Origin: Clostridium sp.
Lineage (GTDB): Bacteria > Bacillota > Clostridia > Clostridiales > Clostridiaceae
Reading direction: 5' to 3'
Assembly: GCF_016650035.1 (NCBI RefSeq)
Contig: NZ_JAENWM010000030.1
Location: forward strand, 1-41,989
DNA: 41,989 nt
The notes below the pieces were generated by a model. The model saw only the letters and a list, made by a program, of their open reading frames with translations, did not search any database and was not told where the DNA came from. Shown piece after piece: positions 18,496 to 32,501 of the stretch. The translations under genes were made by a program, and so were the position numbers. The number at the start of each line of letters is the position of its first letter. Position 1 is the stretch's first letter.

Positions 18496-19347
18496 ATGGA
18501 ATTCACTAAAATTCAAGGAGCAGGGAATGACTTTATAATAGTAAACAATATGAAACTTAAGTTGCCATTAGATAAGATACCTTGCATAGCTGCGAAGTTA
18601 TGTAAGAGAAAAGTATCCTTAGGTGCAGATGGTTTTATAGTAGTTGATGCTGCTGAAGGTGATGCTGATTTTAAAATGCGTTTTTATAATTCTGATGGTA
18701 GTATTGGTGAGATGTGTGGTAATGGTGCAAGATGCATTGCTAGATATGCATATAGCAATAATATCGCAGGGAAAAAAATGAAGTTTGAAACATTGGCAGG
18801 TATAGTATCGGCAGAAATAATAAAGGGTAGACTTGTAAAAGTTCAGCTTAATAGTCCCGAAAAAATTGAACTTGATTCTGATGTTGAAATTGATGGTAAA
18901 AAATATGAGTGCTCATATATAGAACTTGGGAATCCAGGAATTCCTCATGCCGTTGTAAAATATCCAGGTCTTCAAAACACGGAGGAAAGTGAATTATTTA
19001 ATATTGGGAGAAAAATAAGATTTTATAAAGATTTTCCTAAAGGAGCAAATGTAAACTTTTTTGATATTTTAGACGATACGTCAGCAATTTTAAAAACATA
19101 TGAAAGAGGAGTTGAGGATTTTACATTGGCATGTGGAACAGGCTCTGGGTCAACTGCAGTTGCTCTCGTATTAAAAGGATATTTAAAGGGTAATAAAGTG
19201 AAAATTGTTTCACCTGGAGGAGAACTATTTATAGAAATGGAAAGATTAGAGGATAGTGTAGAAAAGTTGTTTTTAATAGGAGATACCAATATTATTGCAA
19301 TTGGAAAAATAATGGATGAAGATTTATCAACTTCTATTAAGGAGTAA
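18496..19347 (+). CDS. dapF: Diaminopimelate epimerase
   Basis: A 283-residue enzyme that turns LL-diaminopimelate into the meso form for lysine and peptidoglycan synthesis. Both catalytic cysteines are present: Cys74 in EMCGNGARC and Cys213 in LACGTGSGST. The start KIQGAGNDFIIV is also diagnostic. The length fits the family (270-285). It follows metY by 86 bp with GAGGAGGAAA before the ATG, and is followed closely by the promoter of the citrate operon. Confidence 0.95.
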   Translation: MEFTKIQGAGNDFIIVNNMKLKLPLDKIPCIAAKLCKRKVSLGADGFIVVDAAEGDADFKMRFYNSDGSIGEMCGNGARCIARYAYSNNIAGKKMKFETLAGIVSAEIIKGRLVKVQLNSPEKIELDSDVEIDGKKYECSYIELGNPGIPHAVVKYPGLQNTEESELFNIGRKIRFYKDFPKGANVNFFDILDDTSAILKTYERGVEDFTLACGTGSGSTAVALVLKGYLKGNKVKIVSPGGELFIEMERLEDSVEKLFLIGDTNIIAIGKIMDEDLSTSIKE

Positions 19348-19353
19348 TATGAT

Positions 19354-19382
19354 TTGACTACTAGCCATTACCGTGATATAAT
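19354..19382 (+). promoter_or_regulatory. Promoter of the citDEF operon
   Basis: TTGACT at 19354-19359, a 17-bp spacer and TATAAT at 19377-19382. CTACTA and TAGTAG flank the -10 region as a loose inverted repeat, echoing the operator-like repeat at the second citrate-island promoter. Confidence 0.75.
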
Positions 19383-19442: not shown

Positions 19443-19527
19443 GTTGACAGTGGTTAAAGAAAACTTATAAGTTTAGCTTTATAAGGTCAGCGCAAAAAAC
19501 ATTTATGTTTTTGTGCTGACCTTTTTT
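19443..19527 (+). ncRNA. Conserved two-hairpin leader RNA before citDEF (copy A)
   Basis: The leader has a small hairpin at 19455-19481 (TAAAG, bulged A, AAAC, loop TTATAA, GTTT, AG, CTTTA) and, two bases later, a terminator hairpin. The same layout recurs at 22468-22553 before tctC. In the small hairpin the first pair of the inner stem changes from A-T here to T-A there, a compensatory change, while the outer stem and the A/AG bulge are constant. It looks like an attenuator; no known riboswitch, T-box or ANTAR hexaloop pattern fits. Confidence 0.6.
19483..19527 (+). terminator. Intrinsic terminator/attenuator in leader A
   Basis: AAGGTCAGCGCAAAAAACA pairs with TGTTTTTGTGCTGACCTT, with one G-U pair and one bulge, followed by T6. 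It lies about 58 bp before citD, so it would stop the operon unless antitermination occurs. Confidence 0.85.
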
Positions 19528-19585
19528 GTTTTAAAAAATAGGCATTTTATTTAATACACTAAACTTTTGGAGGAGGTTTTTAATT

Positions 19586-19849
19586 ATGATAGGACAAGCA
19601 GGTAGAGAAAAAGGTGATGATGTTTTGGTTAATGTTAATTTAAATACATCTGATGGTGTAAACGTAGACGTAGAAAGTAAAGTCAAACAACTATTTGGAA
19701 AGCAGATAGAAAAATCTGTTAAGGAAGTATTAGATGAAATGAATATTAAAAATGTACTTGTTACATTAAAAGATCAAGGAGCGTTAGACTTTGTAATAAG
19801 AGCTCGTGTTAAAACGGCTATTAGAAGAGCAAAGGGAGGAGTGAATTAA
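19586..19849 (+). CDS. citD: Citrate lyase acyl carrier protein (gamma subunit), prosthetic-group serine not present
   Basis: An 87-residue protein with clear CitD features: VDVESKVKQLFGKQIEK in the middle and the C-terminal VTLKDQGALDFVIRARVKTA, matching the family's DKGALDCxxRARVxTA. In citrate lyase CitD carries the phosphoribosyl-dephospho-CoA group on a serine in AGTLESSDVMV. Here the aligned segment reads AGREKGDDVLV, with Gly10 and Asp11 where SS should be. If the alignment is right, the carrier cannot be modified in the usual way. GGAGGAGG precedes the ATG; the stop overlaps citE by one base. Confidence 0.85.
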   Translation: MIGQAGREKGDDVLVNVNLNTSDGVNVDVESKVKQLFGKQIEKSVKEVLDEMNIKNVLVTLKDQGALDFVIRARVKTAIRRAKGGVN

Positions 19850-20736
19850 TGAAGAAATTAAGAAGAACTATGATGTTTTGTCCAGCCAATAATCCTAAAA
19901 TGCTCTTTACAGCACAAATATATAACCCTGATTGTATAATATTTGATTTGGAAGATGCGATTGTCTTAGCTGAAAAAGACTCTGCAAGAGATTTGTTATG
20001 TGAAGCCTTAAAAACTGTGGATTATGGAAACATTGAAGTGTTTGCAAGGATTAACGCATTGTACACACCATTTGGCGAAATGGATGTACGAGAGCTTGTA
20101 AAAGCAGGACTTAAAAATATTAGATTGCCTATGTGTGAATCTAGTGAAGATGTTAGAAAATTAGAAATGCTTATTGAAGAAGTTGAAAAAGAAAATGGCA
20201 TAGAAATAGGAACAGTTAAAATACAATGTGCTATTGAAACTCCAAAGGGAGTAGAAAATGCATATGAAATAGCAAAATCCAGTAGTAGAGTCATAGCAAT
20301 ATCTATTGGTGCAGAAGATTTTACTAGATCCCTCGGTACGGATAGAACAAAAGCTGGAAGAGAATTATTTTATGCAAGAACAAGAGTAGTTATTGCGGCA
20401 TCAGCTGCAGGAGTAGATTCTATAGATACTGTATGGGCAGATGTTTCAGATATGGAAGGATTTACAGCAGAAGTAAAAGAAGCGAAAAATTTAGGGTTCT
20501 CAGGTAAATCTTGTGTGCATCCAAAGCAAGTTAAAGAAGTACATAGGATTTTTACACCTACAAAAGAAGAAATTGGAAAGGCTCTAGAAATTATCTATGC
20601 TGCTAAAGAGGCTGAAAAAAAGAATCTTGGAGTAATAACTGTTAATGGCAAGATGGTAGATGTTCCAGTAATTCAAAAGGCTGAAAGAATAGTAGCTCTC
20701 GCAAAAGGTGCAGGAGTATATAAGGAGGAGGAATAG
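19849..20736 (+). CDS. citE: Citrate lyase beta subunit (citryl-ACP lyase)
   Basis: A 295-residue TIM-barrel protein of the HpcH/HpaI-CitE group. The start RRTMMFCPANNPKML, FDLEDAIVLAEKDSAR (metal-binding acidic residues), RINALYTPFGEMD, IETPKGVENA, IGAEDFTRSLGTDR and the late GKSCVHPKQV are all family blocks. It cleaves the citryl thioester to acetyl thioester and oxaloacetate. The ATG overlaps the citD stop (TAATG), so translation is coupled. The ribosome binding site GGAGGAG lies in the citD end. Confidence 0.92.
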   Translation: MKKLRRTMMFCPANNPKMLFTAQIYNPDCIIFDLEDAIVLAEKDSARDLLCEALKTVDYGNIEVFARINALYTPFGEMDVRELVKAGLKNIRLPMCESSEDVRKLEMLIEEVEKENGIEIGTVKIQCAIETPKGVENAYEIAKSSSRVIAISIGAEDFTRSLGTDRTKAGRELFYARTRVVIAASAAGVDSIDTVWADVSDMEGFTAEVKEAKNLGFSGKSCVHPKQVKEVHRIFTPTKEEIGKALEIIYAAKEAEKKNLGVITVNGKMVDVPVIQKAERIVALAKGAGVYKEEE

Positions 20737-20740
20737 AATA

Positions 20741-22297
20741 ATGGAATTTATAGAGAATTCAGTAGGCAGAAAAATACCTAAATACATAGAAGGTGTAGGA
20801 GTACTAAAACCTTATAGGGGACCTTTTGCAACAAAACCTGAAGGCAAAAAATATGCGCCAAGTAAAGCATATAGTACACCCAGTGATACTAAAATACTAA
20901 ACAATATTAGGGAGGTCATTGAAAAGACTGGTCTTAAAGACGGGATGACTATATCTTTTCATCATCATTTAAGAGAAGGAGACTATATATTAAATGTAGT
21001 AGTAGATCAGATAGCCAAAATGGGTATAAAAAACATTACAATTTGTGCTTCTTCTTTGAATAAAGTTCATGAACCACTAATTGAACATATAAAAAATGGT
21101 GTAATAACAGGACTTCAAACTAGTGGTCTTAGAGGCAAACTCGCTAAGGAAATATCTACTAAAAATATTTTAGGAAAACCTATAATATTTAGAACGCATG
21201 GTGGAAGAGCGAGAGCTATAGAAGCTGGAGATGTAAAAATTGATGTAGCATTTTTAGGCGCTTCTGCTTGTGATAGAATGGGGAATATGAATGGAGTAGA
21301 TGGAAAATCAGCCTTTGGAGCTATAGGATATGCTATGGTTGATGCTGAGTATGCAGACAAAGTAGTAGCAATAACAGATAATTTAGTAGATTATCCTCTA
21401 TATCCTATAAGTATATATCAAACATTAGTGGATTATGTTGTTGTAATGGATGAAATAGGTAATCCTTCATTAATTTCCTCAGGTGCTACTAGAGTTACTG
21501 GAAATCCACTAGAACTTGAAATCGCAGAAAATGCAGCAAGAGCAATAATAGATTCTGGATATATTAAAAATGGGTTTTCATTTCAAGCTGGGAGCGGCGG
21601 TTCAGCCTTGGCTGTAGTTAAATTTGTAAAAGAACATATGGAAGAAAATAATATCGTAGGCTCCTTTGCTTCAGGTGGTATAAGCTCATATATGGTAAAA
21701 ATGTTGGAAAAAGGATTATTTAAAGCGCTATATGATACACAGACGTTTGACTGCGAAGCAGGAACTTCCCTTAAAAGAAATCCTAATCATATAGAAATGT
21801 CCGCATCAACATATGCAAATCCACATAATAAAGGGTGCGTTGCGCATCAGTTGGATGTAATGATACTTTCAGCAACGGAAATAGATATTAATTTTAATGT
21901 TAATGTGATGACAGGTTCAACGGGAATAATTATGGGAGCTCAAGGTGGACACCCAGATACAGCAGCTGGAGCAAAATTTACAGTTGTAGTGGCACCACTC
22001 ATGAGAAAAAGAATACCTATAGTTGTTGATAAAGTTACTACAGTTGTGACACCAGGAGAAACTGTTGATATATTTGTAACAGAAAGAGGAATAGCAATAA
22101 ACCCATTAAGAACAGATATAATAGAGAAATTAAGTAAATCAAATCTTCCTATTATGACTATAGGAGAACTTAAAAATTTAGCGGAAAGCTTTACAAGTAT
22201 TCCAGAAAAACCAGAATTTGATGAAGAAATTGTTGGAATAGTTGAATATAGGGATGGGACTATAATGGATGTTATAAGAAAAGTAAAGCAAAAATAA
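20741..22297 (+). CDS. citF: Citrate lyase alpha subunit (citrate CoA-transferase)
   Basis: A 518-residue protein of the CitF family. The start ENSVGRKIPKYIEGVGVLKP, the DGMTISFHHHLREGDY block, FRTHGGRARAIEAGDVKIDV, and GSTGIIMGAQGGHPDTAAGA are typical. It swaps acetyl for citryl on the acyl carrier. The frame extends to 20708, inside citE, but AGGAGGAGG at 20723-20731 sits nine bases before ATG 20741, which gives the usual N-terminus. It is the last citDEF gene; citC, citX and citG are not found in the window. Confidence 0.93.
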   Translation: MEFIENSVGRKIPKYIEGVGVLKPYRGPFATKPEGKKYAPSKAYSTPSDTKILNNIREVIEKTGLKDGMTISFHHHLREGDYILNVVVDQIAKMGIKNITICASSLNKVHEPLIEHIKNGVITGLQTSGLRGKLAKEISTKNILGKPIIFRTHGGRARAIEAGDVKIDVAFLGASACDRMGNMNGVDGKSAFGAIGYAMVDAEYADKVVAITDNLVDYPLYPISIYQTLVDYVVVMDEIGNPSLISSGATRVTGNPLELEIAENAARAIIDSGYIKNGFSFQAGSGGSALAVVKFVKEHMEENNIVGSFASGGISSYMVKMLEKGLFKALYDTQTFDCEAGTSLKRNPNHIEMSASTYANPHNKGCVAHQLDVMILSATEIDINFNVNVMTGSTGIIMGAQGGHPDTAAGAKFTVVVAPLMRKRIPIVVDKVTTVVTPGETVDIFVTERGIAINPLRTDIIEKLSKSNLPIMTIGELKNLAESFTSIPEKPEFDEEIVGIVEYRDGTIMDVIRKVKQK

Positions 22298-22326
22298 ACA
22301 CTCATGTTCAAAAGATTATTAATACT

Positions 22327-22371
22327 TTGACATAGCGCACTTACTATGCTATAATGATCACATAGTAAGTG
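22327..22371 (+). promoter_or_regulatory. Promoter of the tct operon with an 11-bp inverted repeat over the -10 box
   Basis: TTGACA at 22327-22332, a 17-bp spacer and TATAAT at 22350-22355. CACTTACTATG (22338-22348) and CATAGTAAGTG (22361-22371) are a perfect inverted repeat enclosing the -10 and start region, which is where a repressor would block transcription. Confidence 0.8.
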
Positions 22372-22467
22372 AGGGCCATAGGCTTAAGGTAAATATATAT
22401 ATATACGTACTTTGAGATGAAAAGGTTTTCGCTAAATACAGTGTAAACTATAAAATTTAATATTTAT

Positions 22468-22553
22468 GATGACAGGGATTAAAGATAACTATTTAGGTTA
22501 AGCTTTATAAGGTCAGTCCAAGAAACTTTGAGGTTTCTTGTGCTGGCCTTTTT
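22468..22553 (+). ncRNA. Conserved two-hairpin leader RNA before tctC (copy B)
   Basis: Second copy of the citDEF leader. The small hairpin is at 22480-22507 (TAAAG, bulged A, TAAC, 7-base loop, GTTA, AG, CTTTA), followed by TAAGGTCAG and the terminator. Blocks shared with copy A include TGACAG, TTAAAGA and AGCTTTATAAGGTCAG. About 105 nt of further leader lie between the promoter and this block, longer than in copy A. Confidence 0.6.
22509..22553 (+). terminator. Intrinsic terminator/attenuator in leader B
   Basis: AAGGTCAGTCCAAGAAAC pairs with GTTTCTTGTGCTGGCCTT (two G-U pairs, one mismatch) and is followed by a T-run. It lies about 90 bp before tctC, so the tct operon must be read through it. 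Confidence 0.85.
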
Positions 22554-22645: not shown

Positions 22646-23659
22646 ATGAAAAAGAACAATTTAATCAAAATGATTTTAGTTGGAACATTAGCTGTTACAT
22701 CTTTAGCAGGTTGCGGAACAAAAGCTACGACAGATGAGGGGACGACACCTGACTATCCTAAAAATGCTATGGAATTTATAGCACCAGGTGGAGCAGGTGG
22801 TGGTTGGGATTTAACTATCCGTACTGTAGCAAAAGTATTAGAAGACACAGAGCTTGTATCAGTACCAATGCCAATAACTAATAAACCAGGCGGCGGTGGC
22901 GGTATAACATTAGCATACATGCAAGAGAAGAAAGATGCAGATAATTTAATAGCTGTATATTCACCACCAATTATACTTATTAACTTAAATGGTTCAACAG
23001 AATTTAGTTATAAAGATACTACCCCACTTGCAGGACTTATTTCAGATTACGCAGCTTTTGCTGTAAATAAAGGTTCGAAATATACAAATATTAATGAAGT
23101 AATGGATGCATTAAAGAAAGACCCTAAGAGTGTCAAGATAGGTGGAAACTCTGCGGCAGGAAGTATGGATCATATTCAATTCTTAATAATAGCAAAAGCA
23201 GCAGGAGTTAAAGACTTAAAGCAAATAGATTTTATAAGCTTCCAAGATGGTGGAGCTGCTGCTCAATTATTAGGTAACCATATTGATCTTTTAACAACAG
23301 GAATTTCTGACGTAGCGCAATTAGCTGAAGCTGGAGAAATAACAGTATTAGCTCAGTCAGCTGATAAGAGGATAGGAACAGGCGTTGTTGCAGAAATACC
23401 AACATGTATAGAAGAAGGAATAGATGCAACATTTACAAACTGGAGAGGATTATTTGCACCAAAAGATATGCCTGATTATGCCGTTGAATATTGGCAGGAT
23501 ACTTTAGGTAAAATGGTAGAAACTCCAGAATGGATTGCAGCTTGTAAGACAAATGGCTGGGATCAAAAGTATTTAAATACAGCTGATTTTAATACTTTCT
23601 TAGATAAAACTAATGAGGATTATAAATCAATATTAGAAGAAATTGGAATGCTAAAATAG
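22646..23659 (+). CDS. tctC: Tripartite tricarboxylate transporter, substrate-binding lipoprotein
   Basis: A 337-residue lipoprotein. The signal peptide ends in the lipobox LAGC (Cys23), then a Thr-rich linker. The mature part has the TctC family marks: FIAPGGAGGGWDLTIR (carboxylate-binding loop), NKPGGGGGITLAYM, GGNSAAGSMDHIQ and the hinge around FQDGGAAAQLLGNHIDL. It catches citrate or a related tricarboxylate outside the cell for TctAB. AAGGGGG precedes the ATG. Confidence 0.92.
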   Translation: MKKNNLIKMILVGTLAVTSLAGCGTKATTDEGTTPDYPKNAMEFIAPGGAGGGWDLTIRTVAKVLEDTELVSVPMPITNKPGGGGGITLAYMQEKKDADNLIAVYSPPIILINLNGSTEFSYKDTTPLAGLISDYAAFAVNKGSKYTNINEVMDALKKDPKSVKIGGNSAAGSMDHIQFLIIAKAAGVKDLKQIDFISFQDGGAAAQLLGNHIDLLTTGISDVAQLAEAGEITVLAQSADKRIGTGVVAEIPTCIEEGIDATFTNWRGLFAPKDMPDYAVEYWQDTLGKMVETPEWIAACKTNGWDQKYLNTADFNTFLDKTNEDYKSILEEIGMLK

Positions 23660-23677
23660 AAAAAATACATGAAGGGC

Positions 23678-23711
23678 AAATCTGATAAGGAAAAAAAATC
23701 TTATCAGATTT
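23678..23711 (+). other. Hairpin between tctC and tctB
   Basis: AAATCTGATAAG and CTTATCAGATTT form a 12-bp stem with a 10-base A-rich loop. There is no T-run after it, so it is more likely an mRNA-stabilising or processing hairpin, keeping more binding protein than permease, than a full terminator. Confidence 0.6.
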
Positions 23712-23733
23712 ACATTTAGAAGGAGGATATAAA

Positions 23734-24225
23734 TTGGATAGTAAGCGTGAATTAAATTTTGATGCTTTGGTTGGAATTGTTGTTGCATTATTTGGATTGA
23801 TTTATATTTTAGCAGCTTATCTCTTACCAAGGGCAACAATAGGAAAACCATTAGGACCTTCCAAATTTCCGTTTTTATTAGGTGGAATATTGGTTGCTTT
23901 AGGAATTTTACTTTTTTTAAAAAGCGATTTGTCAAAGACAAAAGAAGCATTAAATCAGTTAAAGAAAATGAGTGAAAAAGAAAAATCCAATTCAAAGCTT
24001 ATTGCGTTAACCTGTGTGTTTTGCGTTATATATGCCTTGATTTTTGATAGTTTTGGATTTGTAATTTCAACTTTCATATTTCTTGAAGGTATGCTTTATT
24101 TGACTAATAAAAAACGAATAATACAAAATTCAATAGTGAGTATATGTTTTAGTATTGGTATATATATTTTATTCTCGAAGTTTCTAGGAATTATTCTTCC
24201 ACAAATACCATTTCTAAATATTTAA
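23734..24225 (+). CDS. tctB: Tripartite tricarboxylate transporter, small membrane subunit
   Basis: A 163-residue protein with four membrane helices, the size of TctB. The first helix is followed by LPRATIGKPLGPSKFPFLLG, a known feature of TctB. The start is TTG 23734: AGGAGG at 23721-23726 is seven bases before it and no ATG fits. It joins TctA to form the channel. It lies 14 bp before tctA. Confidence 0.85.
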   Translation: MDSKRELNFDALVGIVVALFGLIYILAAYLLPRATIGKPLGPSKFPFLLGGILVALGILLFLKSDLSKTKEALNQLKKMSEKEKSNSKLIALTCVFCVIYALIFDSFGFVISTFIFLEGMLYLTNKKRIIQNSIVSICFSIGIYILFSKFLGIILPQIPFLNI

Positions 24226-24239
24226 TAGGAGGTGAAATA

Positions 24240-25742
24240 ATGGGTGACGTATTTATAAATTTATTTAATGGGTTTTTGGTAGCAATTACACCTTACCATA
24301 TACTTATGGTTACTGTAGGTGGAGTTTTAGGTACTATCGTTGGTATGCTTCCAGGACTTGGACCTGCAACAGGGGTTGCAGTATTACTTCCACTTACCTT
24401 TTCAATGGGACCAACAGCTGCTTTGATTACAATGTGTGGGGTCTATTATGGATCTATGTATGGTGGTTCAAGAAGTTCGATTTTAATAAACACTCCAGGA
24501 GATGGTGCGGCTTTAGCTGCAACTTTTGATGGCTATCCTATGGCTATGAGTGGTAGGGCAGAATCAGCCCTTGCAATATCTGCAATAGCATCATTTATTG
24601 GTGGAACGATTGCAGCAGTATTCATGGTCTTTGTTGCTAATCCTATTGCGGATTTTGCTATAAAATTTGGACCGGCTGAATATTTTCTTTTGATGATAGC
24701 AGCACTTGCAATGACAGCATCAATGTCTGAAAAGAATATGGTAAAGGGATTTATTGCAACAATTATAGGACTCATGATAACAACAGTTGGTATAGATGGA
24801 CAATCTGGTGTTCCAAGATTCACTTTTGGGAACTTGCATTTACAAACAGGAATAGATTTTCTTGTAGCTATAATTGGTATCTATGCTTTAGGCGAGGTTT
24901 TTAAAAGCTTTAAAACACTTCAAGAAGGAACTAAAAAATCTCAAACAAAGTTTAAGAAGATTTGGGTTACAAAAGAAGAATGGAATAGATGTAAATGGCC
25001 TATACTAAGAAGTACACCACTTGGATTCTTTATTGGAGCACTTCCAGGTGCAGGTGGAACAATGGCATCGTTAATGGCATATAACAATGAAAGATCAATG
25101 TCGAAAAATAAAGAAGAATTTGGTAAAGGCGCTATAGAAGGCTTAGCGGCACCAGAAGCTGCCAACAACGCTGCGTCAGTTGGAGCTTTGATACCGATGC
25201 TTACTCTTGGTATTCCAGGTTCAGGAACAACTGCAGTTATGATGGGAGCATTATTGATGCTTGGTATTCAACCAGGACCACTATTATTCTCACAGCATCC
25301 TGCGGTAGCATGGGGACTTATTGCAAGTATGTTTATTGGAAATATTATGTTAGCAATTATAAATATTCCACTTGCTGGTCTTCTTGTAAGGGTTCTAGCT
25401 ATTCCGGTGAAATTATTGTACCCTTTAGTATTAGCATTAGCGTTTGTGGGAGCTTATGCTATAAGTAACAGTATAACAGATTTTTATCTATTAACTGGAT
25501 TTGGTATATTAGGATACATAATGAGTAAAATAAATCTTCCATCAGCACCATTGGTACTCGGTTGTATAGTCGGAGGAACAATGGAACAATCATTTAGGCA
25601 AGCGATGACAATATCAAATGGAAGTGCGAAAATTTTCGTTAGTTCAGCAGTAGCAATAGGTTTAATAATTATTACAATTGCTTCAATTGTATATCCAATG
25701 ATTAAAGCATCTTATAAAAAGAAAAAAATGAATATGGTATAG
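24240..25742 (+). CDS. tctA: Tripartite tricarboxylate transporter, large permease subunit
   Basis: A 500-residue membrane protein with about 12 helices. Family motifs include GTIVGMLPGLGPATGVAVLL, YYGSMYGGSRSSILINTPGD and, in the second half, GALPGAGGTMASLMAY, an internal repeat of the first motif. These two loops form the substrate path. It drives uptake with Na+ or H+. AGGAGGTG lies before the ATG. A weak hairpin follows, then the decarboxylase genes. Confidence 0.95.
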   Translation: MGDVFINLFNGFLVAITPYHILMVTVGGVLGTIVGMLPGLGPATGVAVLLPLTFSMGPTAALITMCGVYYGSMYGGSRSSILINTPGDGAALAATFDGYPMAMSGRAESALAISAIASFIGGTIAAVFMVFVANPIADFAIKFGPAEYFLLMIAALAMTASMSEKNMVKGFIATIIGLMITTVGIDGQSGVPRFTFGNLHLQTGIDFLVAIIGIYALGEVFKSFKTLQEGTKKSQTKFKKIWVTKEEWNRCKWPILRSTPLGFFIGALPGAGGTMASLMAYNNERSMSKNKEEFGKGAIEGLAAPEAANNAASVGALIPMLTLGIPGSGTTAVMMGALLMLGIQPGPLLFSQHPAVAWGLIASMFIGNIMLAIINIPLAGLLVRVLAIPVKLLYPLVLALAFVGAYAISNSITDFYLLTGFGILGYIMSKINLPSAPLVLGCIVGGTMEQSFRQAMTISNGSAKIFVSSAVAIGLIIITIASIVYPMIKASYKKKKMNMV

Positions 25743-25814: not shown

Positions 25815-27182
25815 ATGGGAAAACTTAAATTTACTGAGACAGTATTAAGAGATGGACATCAATCTTTAATTGCAACAAGGCTTACCACAACAGAAATCCT
25901 CCCTATTTTGGAGAAGATGGATAAGGTGGGTTACTACGCTATGGAAGTTTGGGGCGGGGCTACTTTTGATTCTTGCTTAAGGTTTTTAAATGAAGACCCG
26001 TGGGAAAGACTAAGAGAAATTAGAAAAAGGGTAAAGAATACAAAACTTCAGATGCTTTTAAGAGGTCAAAATCTTCTAGGGTATAAGCACTATCCAGATG
26101 ATATTGTAGAAAAATTTATTGAAAAGGCTGTAGAAAATGGTATAGATATTATTCGTATATTTGATGCTCTAAATGATGTAAGAAATTTAGAAACACCAAT
26201 TAATGCTATTAAAAAAGCTGGAGCTCACTGCCAGTGCGCTATTTCATACACAACAAGTAAAGTACATACCATAGAATATTATATTGATTTAATGGTCGAA
26301 ATGGAGAATGCTGGGGCAGACTCAATATGCATAAAAGATATGGCAGGTATATTAACCCCTGATGTAGCTTACAAATTAATTAGTAGAGTGAAAAAAGAAA
26401 TAGAGATACCTATAGAACTGCACAGTCACTGTACTAGTGGGATTGCATCCATGACATACATGAAGGCCGTAGAAGCAGGGGTTGATATTATTGATACTGC
26501 TATTTCGCCTTTTTCAGAAGGAACATCCCAACCATGCACAGAATCTTTGGCTGTAGTTTTTAAAGATGGGGAAAGAAATCCGGGACTCAACTTAGAAATT
26601 TTAAATGAAGTAGCAGCATACTTTAGGCCGATAAAACAAAAATACTTAGACAATGGAATATTAAATCCAAAAGTAATGGAAACAGAACCAAAGACTTTAA
26701 TATATCAAGTTCCAGGTGGAATGCTTTCAAACCTTTTATCCCAATTAGAAGGACAAAATGCAGGGGATAAATATGAAGAAGTGCTAAAAGAAATTCCTAA
26801 AGTACGTGAAGACTTAGGATTTCCTCCGCTAGTTACTCCCTTAAGTCAAATGGTTGGTACACAAGCAGTATTCAATATTTTAGTAGGAGAAAGGTATAAA
26901 GTAATACCAAAAGAAATAAAAGAATATGTAAAAGGTCTTTATGGCAAATCACCAGTACCAATAAGTGAAGATATAATAAAAAAAATTATAGGAAATGAAG
27001 AAGTGGTAACAGTAAGACCCGCAGATTTACTGAAGCCAGGATTTGAAAAAGCAAAAGAAGAAATTGGAGATTTAGCAAAGAATGATGAGGATGTGCTAAG
27101 CTACGCGCTGTTTGAACAAGTAGCTAAAAAATTCTTAGAAGAAAAAAATATGGATTATAATTATATTGACGTATCATTTTAA
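25815..27182 (+). CDS. oadA: Oxaloacetate decarboxylase alpha subunit (carboxyltransferase)
   Basis: A 455-residue carboxyltransferase, without the C-terminal biotin domain, which is encoded separately at 27558. It starts with the TIM barrel: TETVLRDGHQSLIATRLTT, MEVWGGATFDSCLRFLNEDP, the carboxylated lysine in CIKDMAG (Lys174) and the metal-binding HSHCTSG (His203, His205). It moves CO2 from oxaloacetate to biotin, giving pyruvate. In sequence it also resembles pyruvate carboxylase subunit B; the neighbouring membrane subunits favour the Na+ pump. AAGAGGTG precedes the ATG. Confidence 0.9.
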   Translation: MGKLKFTETVLRDGHQSLIATRLTTTEILPILEKMDKVGYYAMEVWGGATFDSCLRFLNEDPWERLREIRKRVKNTKLQMLLRGQNLLGYKHYPDDIVEKFIEKAVENGIDIIRIFDALNDVRNLETPINAIKKAGAHCQCAISYTTSKVHTIEYYIDLMVEMENAGADSICIKDMAGILTPDVAYKLISRVKKEIEIPIELHSHCTSGIASMTYMKAVEAGVDIIDTAISPFSEGTSQPCTESLAVVFKDGERNPGLNLEILNEVAAYFRPIKQKYLDNGILNPKVMETEPKTLIYQVPGGMLSNLLSQLEGQNAGDKYEEVLKEIPKVREDLGFPPLVTPLSQMVGTQAVFNILVGERYKVIPKEIKEYVKGLYGKSPVPISEDIIKKIIGNEEVVTVRPADLLKPGFEKAKEEIGDLAKNDEDVLSYALFEQVAKKFLEEKNMDYNYIDVSF

Positions 27183-27209
27183 ATAATACACAAGTAAAGG
27201 GGTGTGAAA

Positions 27210-27521
27210 ATGTTAGGAAATGAAGTTTCGATATCCCAGGCTCTTAATGTTTCACTTGGATCTATAATTTTAGTTTTTTCTCTTTTATTTCTTCTTTCAT
27301 TGATACTATCATCATTTAAGCATATTTTCAAAGAGAAGAAGGTCAAAGTTATTGAAGAGATAAATAGCATTCAAGAAGTAGCAACATGTAGAAATGAAAT
27401 CGAAATAACAAGCTTAGAAGAAGAGGATGATATAGTGGCTTGCATAGCAGCAACTATTGCAGCTAGTGCTGGTAACAGGAATTCTAGAATTCATGTAAGA
27501 AGCATAAAGAGGATAAATTAG
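27210..27521 (+). CDS. OadG-like small membrane subunit of the sodium-pumping decarboxylase
   Basis: A 103-residue protein with one N-terminal membrane helix (about residues 16-36, SIILVFSLLFLLSLILSSF), a charged Glu/Lys-rich region, and a C-terminal DDIVACIAATIAASAGN followed by basic residues. This is the layout of gamma/delta subunits, which anchor the complex; the segment ending IAATIAASAG is also common in them. GTG 27204 is also in frame, but AAGGGGTG lies five bases before ATG 27210. It sits between the alpha and biotin carrier genes. Confidence 0.75.
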   Translation: MLGNEVSISQALNVSLGSIILVFSLLFLLSLILSSFKHIFKEKKVKVIEEINSIQEVATCRNEIEITSLEEEDDIVACIAATIAASAGNRNSRIHVRSIKRIN

Positions 27522-27557
27522 AATTAAAACTAGCTATGCAGAAGGGAGGAAGAAATT

Positions 27558-27914
27558 ATGGAAAAATATAAAATTAGTTTAAATGAGAAAGTTTATGAAG
27601 TAGAAGTAGAAAAATTAGAGATAGGAGCAGAAGCTCCAAAAAAAGAGGAAAAAGCTCAAGTAAATAACACACCTAAGGTAGCGGAGGCGACGCCATCAGG
27701 TAGTGAAGACGTAACAGCACCTATTCCTGGCGGTATATGGGAAATAAAGGTTAAAGTTGGGGATTTAGTTAAAGCTGGCCAGGTATTAGTAGTTATAGAA
27801 GCAATGAAATTAGAAAATGAAATAGTATCACCAAAAGATGGAAAAGTGACTGCTATAAATGTGACAAAGGGCGATACAGTAGCTTTAGGGGATAAATTAG
27901 TTTCTCTACAGTAG
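27558..27914 (+). CDS. Biotin carboxyl carrier protein of the decarboxylase
   Basis: A 118-residue protein. Residues 1-22 are a beta-rich start, then a Lys/Glu/Ala/Pro linker (about 23-50), then a biotinyl domain with the biotin lysine Lys84 in VIEAMKLENE and a GGIWEIKVKVGDLVKAGQVL strand. The carboxybiotin swings between the alpha subunit and the membrane beta subunit. AAGGGAGGAAG lies before the ATG. Confidence 0.92.
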   Translation: MEKYKISLNEKVYEVEVEKLEIGAEAPKKEEKAQVNNTPKVAEATPSGSEDVTAPIPGGIWEIKVKVGDLVKAGQVLVVIEAMKLENEIVSPKDGKVTAINVTKGDTVALGDKLVSLQ

Positions 27915-27962
27915 TTTTTAAGAAAAATTAATTTATCACTAATAGAAAGGAGGCAGAATTAA

Positions 27963-29075
27963 ATGGCGGAGATGCTTCAAAGCATTATACAAGGATCTGG
28001 TTTTTCAGCGTTAACTTATAAGCATGTAATAATGATGGTAATAGCTTGTATATTTATATATTTAGCAATTGTAAAAAAATATGAACCTTACTTATTAATA
28101 CCAATAGCATTTGGTATGCTCATTGTAAATTTGCCTTTGGCAAACCTTATGTCGGATGGAGGACTTCTTCATTATTTGTATCAAGGTGTAAATTTAGGTA
28201 TATATCCACCATTAATATTTTTATGTGTTGGTGCGGGCACGGACTTTGGGCCACTTATTGCAAATCCTAAAAGTCTACTTCTAGGAGCGGCAGCTCAAAT
28301 GGGAATATTTTTTGCGTTTATAGGAGCCATACTACTCGGGTTTATGGGACCTGAAGCAGCTTCTATAGCAATTATAGGTGGAGCAGATGGACCAACAGCT
28401 ATCTATTTAACAGGTAAATTAGCACCTCACCTTTTAGGTTCTATAGCTGTAGTAGCTTACTCATACATGGCATTAGTTCCAGTTATACAACCACCAATAA
28501 TAAGACTTTTAACTACAAAAGCTGAGCGCGAAATTAAAATGGAACAATTAAGACCAGTATCAAAGACTGAGAAAGTAGTATTTCCAATAATTGTTACTAT
28601 ATTAGTCGTATTATTGTTACCTTCATCAGCTCCATTAATTTGTATGTTGATGTTTGGAAACTTAATAAAAGAGTCAGGAGTAGTACCAAATCTAGTCGTT
28701 ACAGCAAGCAATTCTCTTTTGTACATATTAACTATTTTCTTAGGATTAACTGTAGGCGCGAAAGCTAGTGCAGATGTATTTTTAACAATAGGAACTATGA
28801 AAATATTGGTGCTTGGACTTATGGCATTTGCTATAGGAACAGCAAGTGGAGTATTGTTCGGTAAGTTAATGTGTAAATTAACTAATGGAAAAATCAATCC
28901 AATGATAGGAGCAGCAGGGGTTTCTGCAGTTCCAATGGCAGCAAGAGTTGTTCAAAAGGAAGGACAAAGGGCAAATCCTTCAAATTTCCTATTGATGCAT
29001 GCTATGGGGCCAAATGTTGCAGGAGTAATTGGTTCAGCGGTAGCTGCAGGACTATTACTTAATTTGTTTGGTTAG
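27963..29075 (+). CDS. oadB: Oxaloacetate decarboxylase beta subunit (Na+ pump)
   Basis: A 370-residue membrane protein with about nine to eleven helices. It has the invariant IIGGADGPTAIYLTGKLAP loop with the Na+-binding Asp, GAGTDFGPLIANPKSLLLGA, and the end GAAGVSAVPMAARVVQKEG and NPSNFLLMHAMGPNVAGVIG, all hallmarks of OadB/GcdB. It decarboxylates carboxybiotin and exports Na+. It is the last gene of the island's metabolic part and is followed by a strong terminator. GGAGG is before ATG 27963. Confidence 0.93.
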   Translation: MAEMLQSIIQGSGFSALTYKHVIMMVIACIFIYLAIVKKYEPYLLIPIAFGMLIVNLPLANLMSDGGLLHYLYQGVNLGIYPPLIFLCVGAGTDFGPLIANPKSLLLGAAAQMGIFFAFIGAILLGFMGPEAASIAIIGGADGPTAIYLTGKLAPHLLGSIAVVAYSYMALVPVIQPPIIRLLTTKAEREIKMEQLRPVSKTEKVVFPIIVTILVVLLLPSSAPLICMLMFGNLIKESGVVPNLVVTASNSLLYILTIFLGLTVGAKASADVFLTIGTMKILVLGLMAFAIGTASGVLFGKLMCKLTNGKINPMIGAAGVSAVPMAARVVQKEGQRANPSNFLLMHAMGPNVAGVIGSAVAAGLLLNLFG

Positions 29076-29266: not shown

Positions 29267-31717
29267 GTGAAGAATAGATTTGTCAAATTTAAAAGTAAAA
29301 GTAAAAATATAAATAAATATATAGCAATCCTTTTTTCAATTGTAATTATAGTGTGTCTTATATTTTTCCTAATATGGTCAAATTATAAAAATTTTAGAGA
29401 TTCTATAATTAATAATGAACAAGAAAATTTATTAACTATTGCGGAAATGACTGGAAGAAGTTTGGAAACTTCTATGGATGAACAAAGACTAAATCTAGAA
29501 ATTATAGCTCAGAATTATGCATTTCAAGAAAAATTTAATGTTTTATTGAAAAATGAAAATCTTGATTTTCATATGGATATTCTAGAGGTATACTATAAAA
29601 CACAACAAGAGATGGTTCAATCAGTAGAACTATTAGATAAAGATGGTGTAATCTTAGAAAAAGAATCTTTAATAATTGATGACAAAGAGAGTATAGGTAA
29701 TAATATTTCTAATATTGAAGGTGTAAGAGAGGTAATAAAAGACAATAAAGTTGTTGTAGGTAAAATAGAGTTTGAAAAAGAATTTGGGCCTACGATATGT
29801 TTGCTCCAACCTGTTTTTTATAAAAATGAATTTATAGGAATTATAAGAAGTAAGCTAAGTTTAAATGTTTTATATAAAAAAATTGTTCAACCTATAAAGG
29901 TTGGAGATAAGGGATATGCTTCTGTAAAAGATGAAAATGGAGTGCTTTTAATGCATCCAAAGGGTGAAGACATAGGCGAAAATGTTATGGATGCAAGACA
30001 AGGTCAATTTCCTGAATATGATTGGTCAGAACTGGACGAAATTGTTCAAGAACAAAAGAAAGGAGGAGAAGGTGTAAATTTATATTATTCTATATGGCCA
30101 GGAGATGAAGATTTTAAAAGGATAAAAAAAATCAGTGCATTTGCACCTGCTTATATAGGAGATGAGTTTTGGATAGTAACAGTTACCATGGATTATAAAG
30201 ATGTTGTAAGCATTATTAAAAATAATTTATATAATACACTTGTATTAGCTGGAGTTCTTATATTAATTTTCATATTAGTAATAAAATATGTTTATAAAAT
30301 CAAAGAAAATCAAAGTAGAATTGAAGTTGAGGCTAAATATGTAAGTGAAGTTGAAACTCTGAATGTTGAATTAAAAGAGGACATAGAAGAAAGAAAATTA
30401 CTCCAAGTTGAACTGATTAGAAATAAAGAAAAATATGAAGTGTTATTTAGCAGTGGCAGCGATTGTATTTTTGTTTTAAATATAAATGATAATTTTTTCG
30501 GTAATTTTCTTGAGGTTAATGATAAAGCATGTGCGGTACTTGGTTACTCTAAGGAAGAAATATGCAATATGGAGTATTATGAGATAATTTTTGGATTAAA
30601 GAACGACAAAAATGAAGAAATTAAAAAGGCGTTACGTATACAAGAAACAGTATTATTTGAAGCTGTTCTTAAAGCAAAAGATGGTAGTACGATAACAGTA
30701 GAGATAAACACACGGTTATTTAAACTTCAAAATCAACAAAAATTAGTACTGATTTCTAGAGATATTACTAATAGAAAAATTGAAGAAGAAACTTTAATTA
30801 GAAGTGAAGAGAGGTTTAGAAGCATAATAAATATAGTAGCATCTCAGATTTCTCTTGATGGTGAATATAAAGAGTTTTTTGAATCAATTAATAAAAGTGA
30901 AACAGATATAGAAGAAAATGACAATCAAAAGATGATTATAAAGTTAGAAAAGATAAACATGAAACTGGAAAAAATGTTTAAGAAAGAAATGGATGAGAAT
31001 AAAAGAAAAGAAGCATTGATGATTTATCAATCAAAATTTGTTGCTATGGGTGAAATGATTGGTAATATTGCTCACCAATGGAGACAGCCCTTAAGCATAT
31101 TAGCACTTATTATAACAAATATAGAAGATATGCATAAGTATAATGATTTAGATGAAGAAACATTAGAAAGTTTAATAGGTAAATCAAGAAACCTTATTGA
31201 TAAAATGTCTCAAACAATAGATGATTTTAGATACTTTTTTAAACCTACAATGGACAAAGAAAGTTTTTCTTTATATGATAGTATTTTTACAACTATAGAA
31301 TTAATCGAAGAAAATTTTAAGTTTCATAAAATACAATGTAATATAAAAAACATAGATAATTTTATGGCATATGGATATTCAAATCAATATTCTCAAGTAA
31401 TCTTCAACATAATAAATAATGCTATTGATGCATTATCGGAATCTAATACAGTGAACAAACAAATTGACATAGAAATAAGTAGCAATGGGTTATGTAATAC
31501 TGTTAAAATAAAAGATAATGCTGGGGGTATAGATGAGCTTATAGCGAAAAAAATATTTGAACCGTATTTTACAACGAAAAATAAGAAGCAGGGGACAGGT
31601 CTTGGTTTATATATGTCAAAAATGATTATTGAAAAGAATTTTAATGGTAGTATAAAATTTTATAATGTGGATGGGGGAGCTTGTTTTAATATTTCTATTC
31701 CCGTTAAGGAGGTATAG
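29267..31717 (+). CDS. Membrane sensor histidine kinase with Cache and PAS domains
   Basis: An 816-residue protein. Membrane helices lie at about residues 17-38 and 325-348, enclosing an extracellular double-Cache domain (about 45-315, with GDKGYASVKDENGVLLMHPKG). A coiled coil and a PAS domain (about 390-500) follow. The phosphoacceptor His603 is in IGNIAHQWRQPLS, and the ATPase domain has NIINNAIDAL, IKDNAGGI and GTGLGLYMSKMII. Cache sensors often bind carboxylates; beside a citrate island, citrate or a dicarboxylate is a fair guess. GTG start, 10 bases after AAGGAGG. It is one base from the response regulator gene. Confidence 0.9.
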   Translation: MKNRFVKFKSKSKNINKYIAILFSIVIIVCLIFFLIWSNYKNFRDSIINNEQENLLTIAEMTGRSLETSMDEQRLNLEIIAQNYAFQEKFNVLLKNENLDFHMDILEVYYKTQQEMVQSVELLDKDGVILEKESLIIDDKESIGNNISNIEGVREVIKDNKVVVGKIEFEKEFGPTICLLQPVFYKNEFIGIIRSKLSLNVLYKKIVQPIKVGDKGYASVKDENGVLLMHPKGEDIGENVMDARQGQFPEYDWSELDEIVQEQKKGGEGVNLYYSIWPGDEDFKRIKKISAFAPAYIGDEFWIVTVTMDYKDVVSIIKNNLYNTLVLAGVLILIFILVIKYVYKIKENQSRIEVEAKYVSEVETLNVELKEDIEERKLLQVELIRNKEKYEVLFSSGSDCIFVLNINDNFFGNFLEVNDKACAVLGYSKEEICNMEYYEIIFGLKNDKNEEIKKALRIQETVLFEAVLKAKDGSTITVEINTRLFKLQNQQKLVLISRDITNRKIEEETLIRSEERFRSIINIVASQISLDGEYKEFFESINKSETDIEENDNQKMIIKLEKINMKLEKMFKKEMDENKRKEALMIYQSKFVAMGEMIGNIAHQWRQPLSILALIITNIEDMHKYNDLDEETLESLIGKSRNLIDKMSQTIDDFRYFFKPTMDKESFSLYDSIFTTIELIEENFKFHKIQCNIKNIDNFMAYGYSNQYSQVIFNIINNAIDALSESNTVNKQIDIEISSNGLCNTVKIKDNAGGIDELIAKKIFEPYFTTKNKKQGTGLGLYMSKMIIEKNFNGSIKFYNVDGGACFNISIPVKEV

Positions 31718-31718
31718 C

Positions 31719-32501
31719 ATGATTATTCAAAAGGAAGAAAATTTACTTTCTAATTTAAAAGTCCTATATGTGGAAGATGAAGAATTCCATAGAGAGCAAC
31801 TAGGCATATTTTTAAAAAGAAGGGTTGGTAAATTATATCTAGCAGAGAATGGAGAAGATGGGTTAAATAAGTTTAAGGAATTTAATCCTGATATTGTTAT
31901 TACTGATCTTAAGATGCCAGAAATGGATGGAATAGAAATGGCAAGGAATATAAGAGATATAGACAAAAACTGTGCGATTATTATTACTTCTGCTTTTTCA
32001 GATGTTGAGACGATACTTCAGGCAGTGAATGTGGGAATAGATAATTATGTTATTAAACCTATTAAAAATGATGAACTTATGGAAGCAATGCTTAAAGCGG
32101 CCGTTAAAATATTTAAGCAAAGACAAGATGAAACTATTATAAATGATAATACCGTTCTTAGCAAAACATTAAAAACTGAAGTGGAAAGTAAAATAAAAAA
32201 TTTGTTTGCAAGATTTATTAAGACTAATACTGGAAAAGGTCCTAAAGATGTAAATGTGTTTATTAGTGGAAATATTATACAGATTAAAGCATTGGATACA
32301 CTTACTTTATTTGAAAAAAAATTATTGGAAAATAGTAAAAATTACTCAATGATAAATTATAATAGGCAAGCATTTTATATGGACAGAAAGGAGGAAATTG
32401 AAGAAATCATTAGAGAAGCTTTAATGGCAGATTTAATATTAAAAGAGGTAATTATTGATTCAAGTAAAAATGTAGATATGATGATAATTAGTATAAAATA
32501 G
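31719..32501 (+). CDS. Response regulator with a DUF2294/MpsC-like output domain
   Basis: A 260-residue protein. Residues 10-125 are a receiver domain: acidic cluster EDE (19-21), phospho-Asp63 in VITDLKMPEMDG, ITSA, and IKPI near residue 113. The C-terminal half (about 145-260) has no helix-turn-helix, ANTAR or enzyme motif. Its pattern EVESKIKNLFARFIKTNTGK then GPKDVNVFISGNIIQIKALD, LTLFEKKLLEN and a helix before a final strand matches my recollection of DUF2294, named for the Na+-translocating MpsC family. How it acts is not known. The frame is open to 31665, but AAGGAGG at 31706-31712 sets ATG 31719, one base after the kinase stop. Confidence 0.82.
   Translation: MIIQKEENLLSNLKVLYVEDEEFHREQLGIFLKRRVGKLYLAENGEDGLNKFKEFNPDIVITDLKMPEMDGIEMARNIRDIDKNCAIIITSAFSDVETILQAVNVGIDNYVIKPIKNDELMEAMLKAAVKIFKQRQDETIINDNTVLSKTLKTEVESKIKNLFARFIKTNTGKGPKDVNVFISGNIIQIKALDTLTLFEKKLLENSKNYSMINYNRQAFYMDRKEEIEEIIREALMADLILKEVIIDSSKNVDMMIISIK

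Follow-up and report, generated by a model that had tools for sequence, protein, structure and literature searches.

Antiterminator leader RNAs of clostridial citrate operons and their genomic linkage to MpsC, a predicted RNA-binding output domain of response regulators

Background

How are two operons of one pathway, each with a terminator in its leader, released for transcription? The question is raised by a 41,989-nt stretch of DNA from Clostridium sp. (contig NZ_JAENWM010000030.1), which was analyzed as a whole and is referred to here as the window. It carries a gene cluster in the order citDEF, tctCBA, oxaloacetate decarboxylase genes, a sensor kinase and a response regulator; one leader precedes citD, another precedes tctC, and the kinase/regulator pair is encoded 7-9 kb downstream of the leaders in the same cluster. 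The leaders have two competing structures, an antiterminator element and a terminator that overlap, and covarying elements of this type are linked in other genomes to genes for the MpsC domain (PF10057, DUF2294), which forms the C-terminal part of the response regulator. From sequence comparisons we consider it very probable that MpsC is an RNA-binding antiterminator domain and that the kinase/receiver-MpsC pair releases both citrate operons, the binding and its effect on expression being predictions. Few response regulators act on RNA, the established case being those with the ANTAR domain.

Results and discussion

Each leader can form two mutually exclusive structures

The cit leader (19443-19527) and the tct leader (22468-22553) have in common a small hairpin and an intrinsic terminator, and the single layout claimed for them in a preliminary description of this DNA was confirmed both in the sequence and by folding. 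Both contain TGACAG, an outer stem TAAAG/CTTTA, an A/AG internal loop, and TAAGGTCAG, which opens a hairpin followed by a T-run. The inner stem is AAAC/GTTT in one leader and TAAC/GTTA in the other, the change from A-U to U-A being compensatory, and the terminator stems differ on both sides, as alignment of the two sequences (mean column identity 88%) bears out. Folded as 88-nt RNAs, the leaders gave z-scores of -3.78 and -3.88, with 1 of 200 shuffled sequences equally stable in each case. TAAGGTCAG by itself is not special genome-wide (19 matches, compared with 15 for a reversed control).

The preliminary description had recognized the hairpin, the A/AG loop and the terminator, and had called the arrangement a two-hairpin attenuator, but it missed one helix; with this helix the RNA is an antiterminator/terminator switch. 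When the 3' arm of the terminator is omitted from the folding, each leader closes into one hairpin, in which TGAC of 'TGACAG' (19445-19448 in the cit leader, 22470-22473 in the tct leader) pairs with GTCA of 'GGTCAG' (19486-19489 and 22512-22515, respectively), inside the 5' arm of the terminator. The element so formed comprises 49-50 nt, in which three helices are stacked: the new helix, P1, is separated by an internal loop from P2 (TAAAG/CTTTA), and P2 by the A/AG internal loop from P3. In the full-length leader the terminator wins. A simple scan of the window for terminators returned none; we treated both hairpins as terminators because of their free energies according to RNAfold (-22.6 and -23.5 kcal/mol) and the T-runs that follow them. 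They are more stable than the elements (-9.7 and -7.5 kcal/mol), and therefore the default state should be off and something must stabilize the element. The leader RNA is an antiterminator (P1-P2-A/NG-P3) that excludes the terminator.

The element recurs in other genomes and its helices covary

A covariance model (R1) was derived solely from the two window leaders and searched in 206 genomes of the same family, including the window's own; at E<=0.01 it matched in five others (G and L are our handles for genomes and loci; genes outside the window were named by eye from their translations). In G162 and G168 the match is immediately flanked by a gene for a receiver-MpsC protein upstream and a nucleobase-type permease gene downstream; the matches in G191 and G092 precede a cheV-like gene, and that in G161 precedes fragmentary open reading frames (ORFs). 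Receiver-MpsC genes are uncommon (10 of the 206 family genomes, 9 of 205 without the window's own; 6 of 391 in a sample of the class), and their presence in three of the five newly matched genomes (G162, G168 and G191), against 9/205, corresponds to p = 6e-4.

Inspection of further loci revealed the arrangements citDEF-citX-receiver-MpsC-element-citS-oadA (G427) and kinase-receiver-MpsC-element-permease-xdh (G546), and in G074, G190, G049, G035 and G191 two tandem elements before a gene run that ends in receiver-MpsC; in the tandem pairs the terminator is joined to the second element only. A manual alignment was made of twenty elements, 15 with terminators and 5 upstream units; 7 of them came from the R1 search and 13 from inspection of the surroundings of receiver-MpsC genes, and each row was verified in its locus. 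In this alignment, which was fitted to the structure and leans towards it, 90.3% of 331 pairing cells can pair, compared with 73.6% in shuffled and 30-44% in slid alignments, and 16 of the 17 base pairs show changes on both sides. None of 500 shuffles equalled the real alignment on any of five measures. Hardly any variation is seen in the AG of P2, in the single A or, on the opposite side, in G-CU; the P3 loops vary from 3 to 6 nt and have no residues in common. Of 28 elements of this class (a count that leaves out the five upstream units, none of which has a terminator), 27 have 7-12 nt of the terminator in common with the 3' arm of P1, and in all 27 the terminator is the more stable structure; in the sole exception, G080, a terminator-like hairpin longer than our script allowed is visible by eye. 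These data bear on the explanation that a leader was merely duplicated from one operon to the other, that the resulting terminators are not regulated, and that the small hairpin is incidental. A duplication is itself likely, because the window leaders are so similar. In several families, however, copies that have diverged retain both the overlap with the terminator and, through compensatory changes, the structure, and we find this explanation hardly credible.

A second model, R2, was built from the 20 aligned rows. Over 200 family genomes it gave 29 matches at E<=1e-3 in 11 genomes, 14 of them training elements; the other 15 fall in seven genomes (G002, G049, G074, G190, G191, G026 and G048). 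All seven encode MpsC, compared with 29/206 at E<=1e-5 (p = 6e-7), five of the seven having also contributed training rows. An MpsC gene is present in all 11 genomes matched by R2, and no MpsC match exceeds the Pfam cut-off in G161 and G092, which were found by R1; R2 has no match in G161 at E<=0.05, though the G161 element was a training row. G026 and G048 are without receiver-MpsC, and there the element adjoins a stand-alone MpsC gene. Over 265 genomes of the class, R2 matched at E<=0.005 only in G000 and G002.

Among the contexts of R2 matches that we read are flgB-flgC, chemoreceptor genes and a PHA-type operon, the flgB and chemoreceptor matches being in genomes that have receiver-MpsC. 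This variety argues against a riboswitch with citrate or a related acid as its direct ligand, as two copies before two operons of one pathway might suggest: the same element stands before permease, cheV, flgB, chemoreceptor, nuo and formate dehydrogenase genes, it measures only about 50 nt with variable loops, and it has no Rfam match, so that we regard a riboswitch as very improbable. Scans of the window and of 16 further element loci gave no match at or above the gathering score of any Rfam family; the sub-threshold lists were led by microRNA families, and the Staphylococcus small RNA sau-5971 appeared once, at E 0.17, and did not recur. The absence of Rfam matches and the specific, meaningful hits of the covariance models in other genomes support the suggestion of the preliminary description that this is a new attenuator family, distinct from known riboswitches and the T-box, and the short P3 loops without common residues agree with its remark that no ANTAR hexaloop site is recognizable.

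Stand-alone MpsC genes and a second class of leader

We have also analyzed 21 loci of stand-alone MpsC genes (+-1.5 kb or less) and, as controls, 25 loci of receiver-only regulators from the first protein search. At E<=0.013, R2 matched in six of the 21, two of which (G048 and G026) were already known from the family-genome search: five matches are located at the 3' end of mpsC or overlap it, one (L161) lies 66 nt upstream of the gene, and five of the six stand ahead of a formate dehydrogenase gene. The control loci gave no R2 match at E<=10 (6/21 against 0/25, p = 0.006). Three further matches in the same position have E-values of 0.18-0.39 (L163, L165 and L162); all nine adjoin mpsC, and seven of them lie between mpsC and a formate dehydrogenase gene. 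Four other rows in the stand-alone loci (E 0.26-6.8) were taken as chance. In L157 (1971-3332) the formate dehydrogenase ORF that follows mpsC is in two parts, perhaps owing to an in-frame TGA read as selenocysteine.

A second type of stand-alone MpsC (MTKGQ...GRGP) is followed by a leader of its own, GGAAGAC...GTAA[GA]CC, which is similarly built and whose first helix also runs into a terminator. The motif occurs in all nine such family loci and in none of 205 other loci (2.1 Mb, some overlapping), a descriptive count, as the motif was defined on those loci. The window's own genome is among the nine: in L225 (contig C42) a stand-alone MpsC gene (259-615) is followed by the second-class leader (625-667), before an antiporter-type gene. 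In eight distinct rows, one of them with a one-base slip in an unpaired loop, 94.6% of cells pair compared with 88.0% in shuffled alignments, and 5 of 12 pairs have changes on both sides; further pair types are not above shuffles. The relatives L188 and L189 from the wider phylum are without the motif. In L188 (1423-2497), from a distant genome, a terminator-like hairpin separates two tandem stand-alone MpsC-like genes.

Is MpsC the protein that binds the element?

In the Pfam scan the response regulator matched Response_reg and MpsC (62.6 bits) and did not match ANTAR (PF03861); a search of the genome for PF03861 gave no match either, but the controls also gave none, so that this result proves nothing alone. 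AlphaFold2 modelled the MpsC domain with high confidence (pLDDT 92.6). A PF10057 search used as a control gave a match, at an unspecified score, in the genome of laboratory Bacillus subtilis. MpsC of Staphylococcus aureus (mpsABC) is named in Pfam's PF10057 entry. That protein was named after the MpsAB bicarbonate transporter; according to the accessible sections of PMC6689103, deletion of mpsC had no effect on growth, the gene was dispensable in complementation, and a weak terminator lies between mpsB and mpsC. The same sections mention no RNA role for mpsC.

Several observations weigh against MpsC as the partner. The model of the domain resembles no solved structure or known RNA-binding fold clearly. 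In neither G161 nor G092, which carry the element, is there an MpsC match over the Pfam cut-off, and the first four receiver-MpsC genomes examined have no cit or tct genes within about 20 kb. Thirteen of the 20 training rows had been sought beside receiver-MpsC genes, so that the linkage of those rows is not independent. Finally, of 11 held-out receiver-MpsC loci R2 misses nine at E<=0.01, and outside the family it recovers only part of such loci. In one of these (L193) it has a match at E 0.076, and in the other eight nothing better than E 0.6; in L047, L048 and L178 a loose descriptor (11 of its 29 matches were accepted) detected a form richer in GC, L177, L180 and L192 contain a divergent form recognized by eye only, and in L175 (a 6-kb contig) and L182 no form of the element was found.

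The two held-out loci that R2 did match, L190 and L191, have four elements, which flank the kinase/regulator pair and face a nuo-type operon in one direction and permease-xdh in the opposite one. The kinases beside permease-xdh (L190 10461-12356, L191 5598-7616) start with a periplasmic region that resembles, by eye, NMT1/THI5-type binding proteins, a hint of a nitrogenous ligand. In L043, the stretch after receiver-MpsC (18815-19260) resembles a cobalamin riboswitch.

Alternatively, the antiterminator could depend on a protein other than MpsC, and MpsC genes could merely travel with the switch or be regulated by it: some elements stand ahead of an operon that encodes receiver-MpsC or, as in G026, upstream of a stand-alone mpsC, two genomes have the element without a detectable MpsC, and the domain shows no recognized RNA-binding fold. 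Nevertheless, the link is seen with fused as well as stand-alone MpsC, two MpsC classes being matched by two RNA classes, and it persists in genomes in which different genes are regulated (permease, citS, nuo, fdhF, flgB). No other recurring regulator was noticed in the neighbourhoods, which were not compared systematically. We therefore judge a different protein to be improbable, though less so than the two explanations dismissed above.

Proposed mechanism

The simplest account is that MpsC binds the hairpin and thereby stabilizes it, and the switch of the citrate operons would then work as follows. By default, the nascent RNA would fold the intrinsic terminator and transcription would stop before citD or tctC. 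The signal sensed by the kinase would, to judge from the genes of the cluster, probably be citrate outside the cell or a related acid; the kinase would then phosphorylate the receiver-MpsC protein, whose activity is expected to depend on phosphorylation. The MpsC domain would then bind the P1-P2-P3 hairpin around the AGA...NGCU internal loop, as the genomic linkage suggests; since P1 holds the first bases of the 5' arm of the terminator, the bound hairpin would block the terminator and both operons would be transcribed. That one signal could release both operons, as had been suggested earlier, is plausible because the kinase/receiver-MpsC pair is encoded in the same cluster, but the element is not specific for citrate, and its likely partner is the MpsC domain.

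On a broader scale, it is rather likely that all of the MpsC family (PF10057) acts in antitermination by RNA binding and that such a domain is widespread; stand-alone forms would sense something themselves and fused forms would be driven by a kinase, each class with a cognate hairpin that caps a terminator. The genes found next to the stand-alone forms (fdhF, a formate/oxalate-type antiporter and purK) would be consistent with formate, bicarbonate or CO2 as their signal. The predicted regulons include citrate, purine, formate, motility and chemotaxis genes. The proposed switch gives a predicted function and an RNA target to a domain dispensable for its name-giving transporter, and would provide response regulators acting on RNA with a second output domain, unrelated to ANTAR. 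If the broader reading is true, the current name of the domain, from a membrane-potential system, would mislead. Searches by title and abstract, with subscription journals and preprints outside their coverage, found no description of such an MpsC/RNA system.

Other features of the window

The features of the locus are collected in Table 1. The promoter-like sites end 60 nt (cit) and 112 nt (tct) upstream of the element, in a region without an excess of sigma-70-like sites (13 found, compared with 16.1 in shuffles). A perfect 10-bp inverted repeat, ACTTACTATG / CATAGTAAGT (22339-22370), lies over the -10 region of the tct site and is a possible operator for a second regulator. Upstream of the element, folding of the tct leader predicts a long hairpin (22368-22433), which the element model does not match.

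Table 1. Coordinates of RNA elements, promoter-like sites and genes in the window
Feature	Position	Strand	Details
Promoter-like site of citDEF leader, TTGACT-17-TATAAT	19354..19382	+	consensus match only, 11/12
Antiterminator element 1	19443..19491	+	P1 19443-19448/19486-19491; P2 19455-19459/19477-19481; A 19460; P3 19461-19465/19470-19474; AG 19475-19476; R2 34.7 bits
Intrinsic terminator and T-run, cit leader	19483..19527	+	RNAfold -22.6 kcal/mol; 5' arm overlaps P1 3' arm, 9 nt
citD, citrate lyase acyl carrier	19586..19849	+	family match
citE	19849..20736	+	E 4e-112 to citE model, under the model's curated cut-off
citF	20708..22297	+	overlaps citE at its listed start; may in fact begin farther downstream
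Promoter-like site of tct leader, TTGACA-17-TATAAT	22327..22355	+	consensus match only, 12/12
Antiterminator element 2	22468..22517	+	P1 22470-22473/22512-22515; P2 22480-22484/22503-22507; A 22485; P3 22486-22490/22496-22500; AG 22501-22502; R2 28.9 bits
Intrinsic terminator and T-run, tct leader	22509..22553	+	RNAfold -23.5 kcal/mol; 5' arm overlaps P1 3' arm, 9 nt
tctC, tctB, tctA, tripartite tricarboxylate transporter	22646..25742	+	domain/family matches
Oxaloacetate decarboxylase genes: alpha, gamma-like, biotin carrier, beta	25815..29075	+	family matches
Sensor histidine kinase, dCache and PAS domains	29267..31717	+	domain matches
Response regulator, receiver and C-terminal MpsC (PF10057); proposed antiterminator protein	31665..32501	+	Pfam, AlphaFold2

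Comparison with known antitermination systems

The antiterminators of the BglG/LicT/SacY proteins consist of one RAT hairpin with internal loops, which overlaps the terminator and is stabilized by the protein. The MpsC element is likewise a single hairpin with internal loops that overlaps the terminator, with stabilization by protein predicted; its sequence probably differs from the RAT consensus. Among the matches listed for 31 window proteins (Pfam or NCBIfam; 11 NCBIfam only), which cover this part of the genome, there is no CAT/PRD protein.

The resemblance to ANTAR systems (EutV, NasR, AmiR) extends to the proteins. According to the accessible sections of PMC3369931, these combine, in EutV, a receiver with an RNA-acting output domain and have a kinase partner, their antiterminator takes the 5' arm of an intrinsic terminator, and one protein switches several operons; the two tandem elements of some MpsC leaders recall the paired sites of ANTAR proteins. 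Overlap of the antiterminator with the 5' base of the terminator was found here in 27 of 28 elements. On the other hand, the output domain is MpsC and not ANTAR, and the ANTAR RNA comprises two hairpins with hexaloops (A at position 1, G at position 4), whereas the P3 loops of our 20 rows have no common residues and the conserved features of the MpsC RNA are an AGA/NGCU internal loop and three stacked helices. The MpsC system works like ANTAR antitermination and is not a member of it, having another domain and another RNA.

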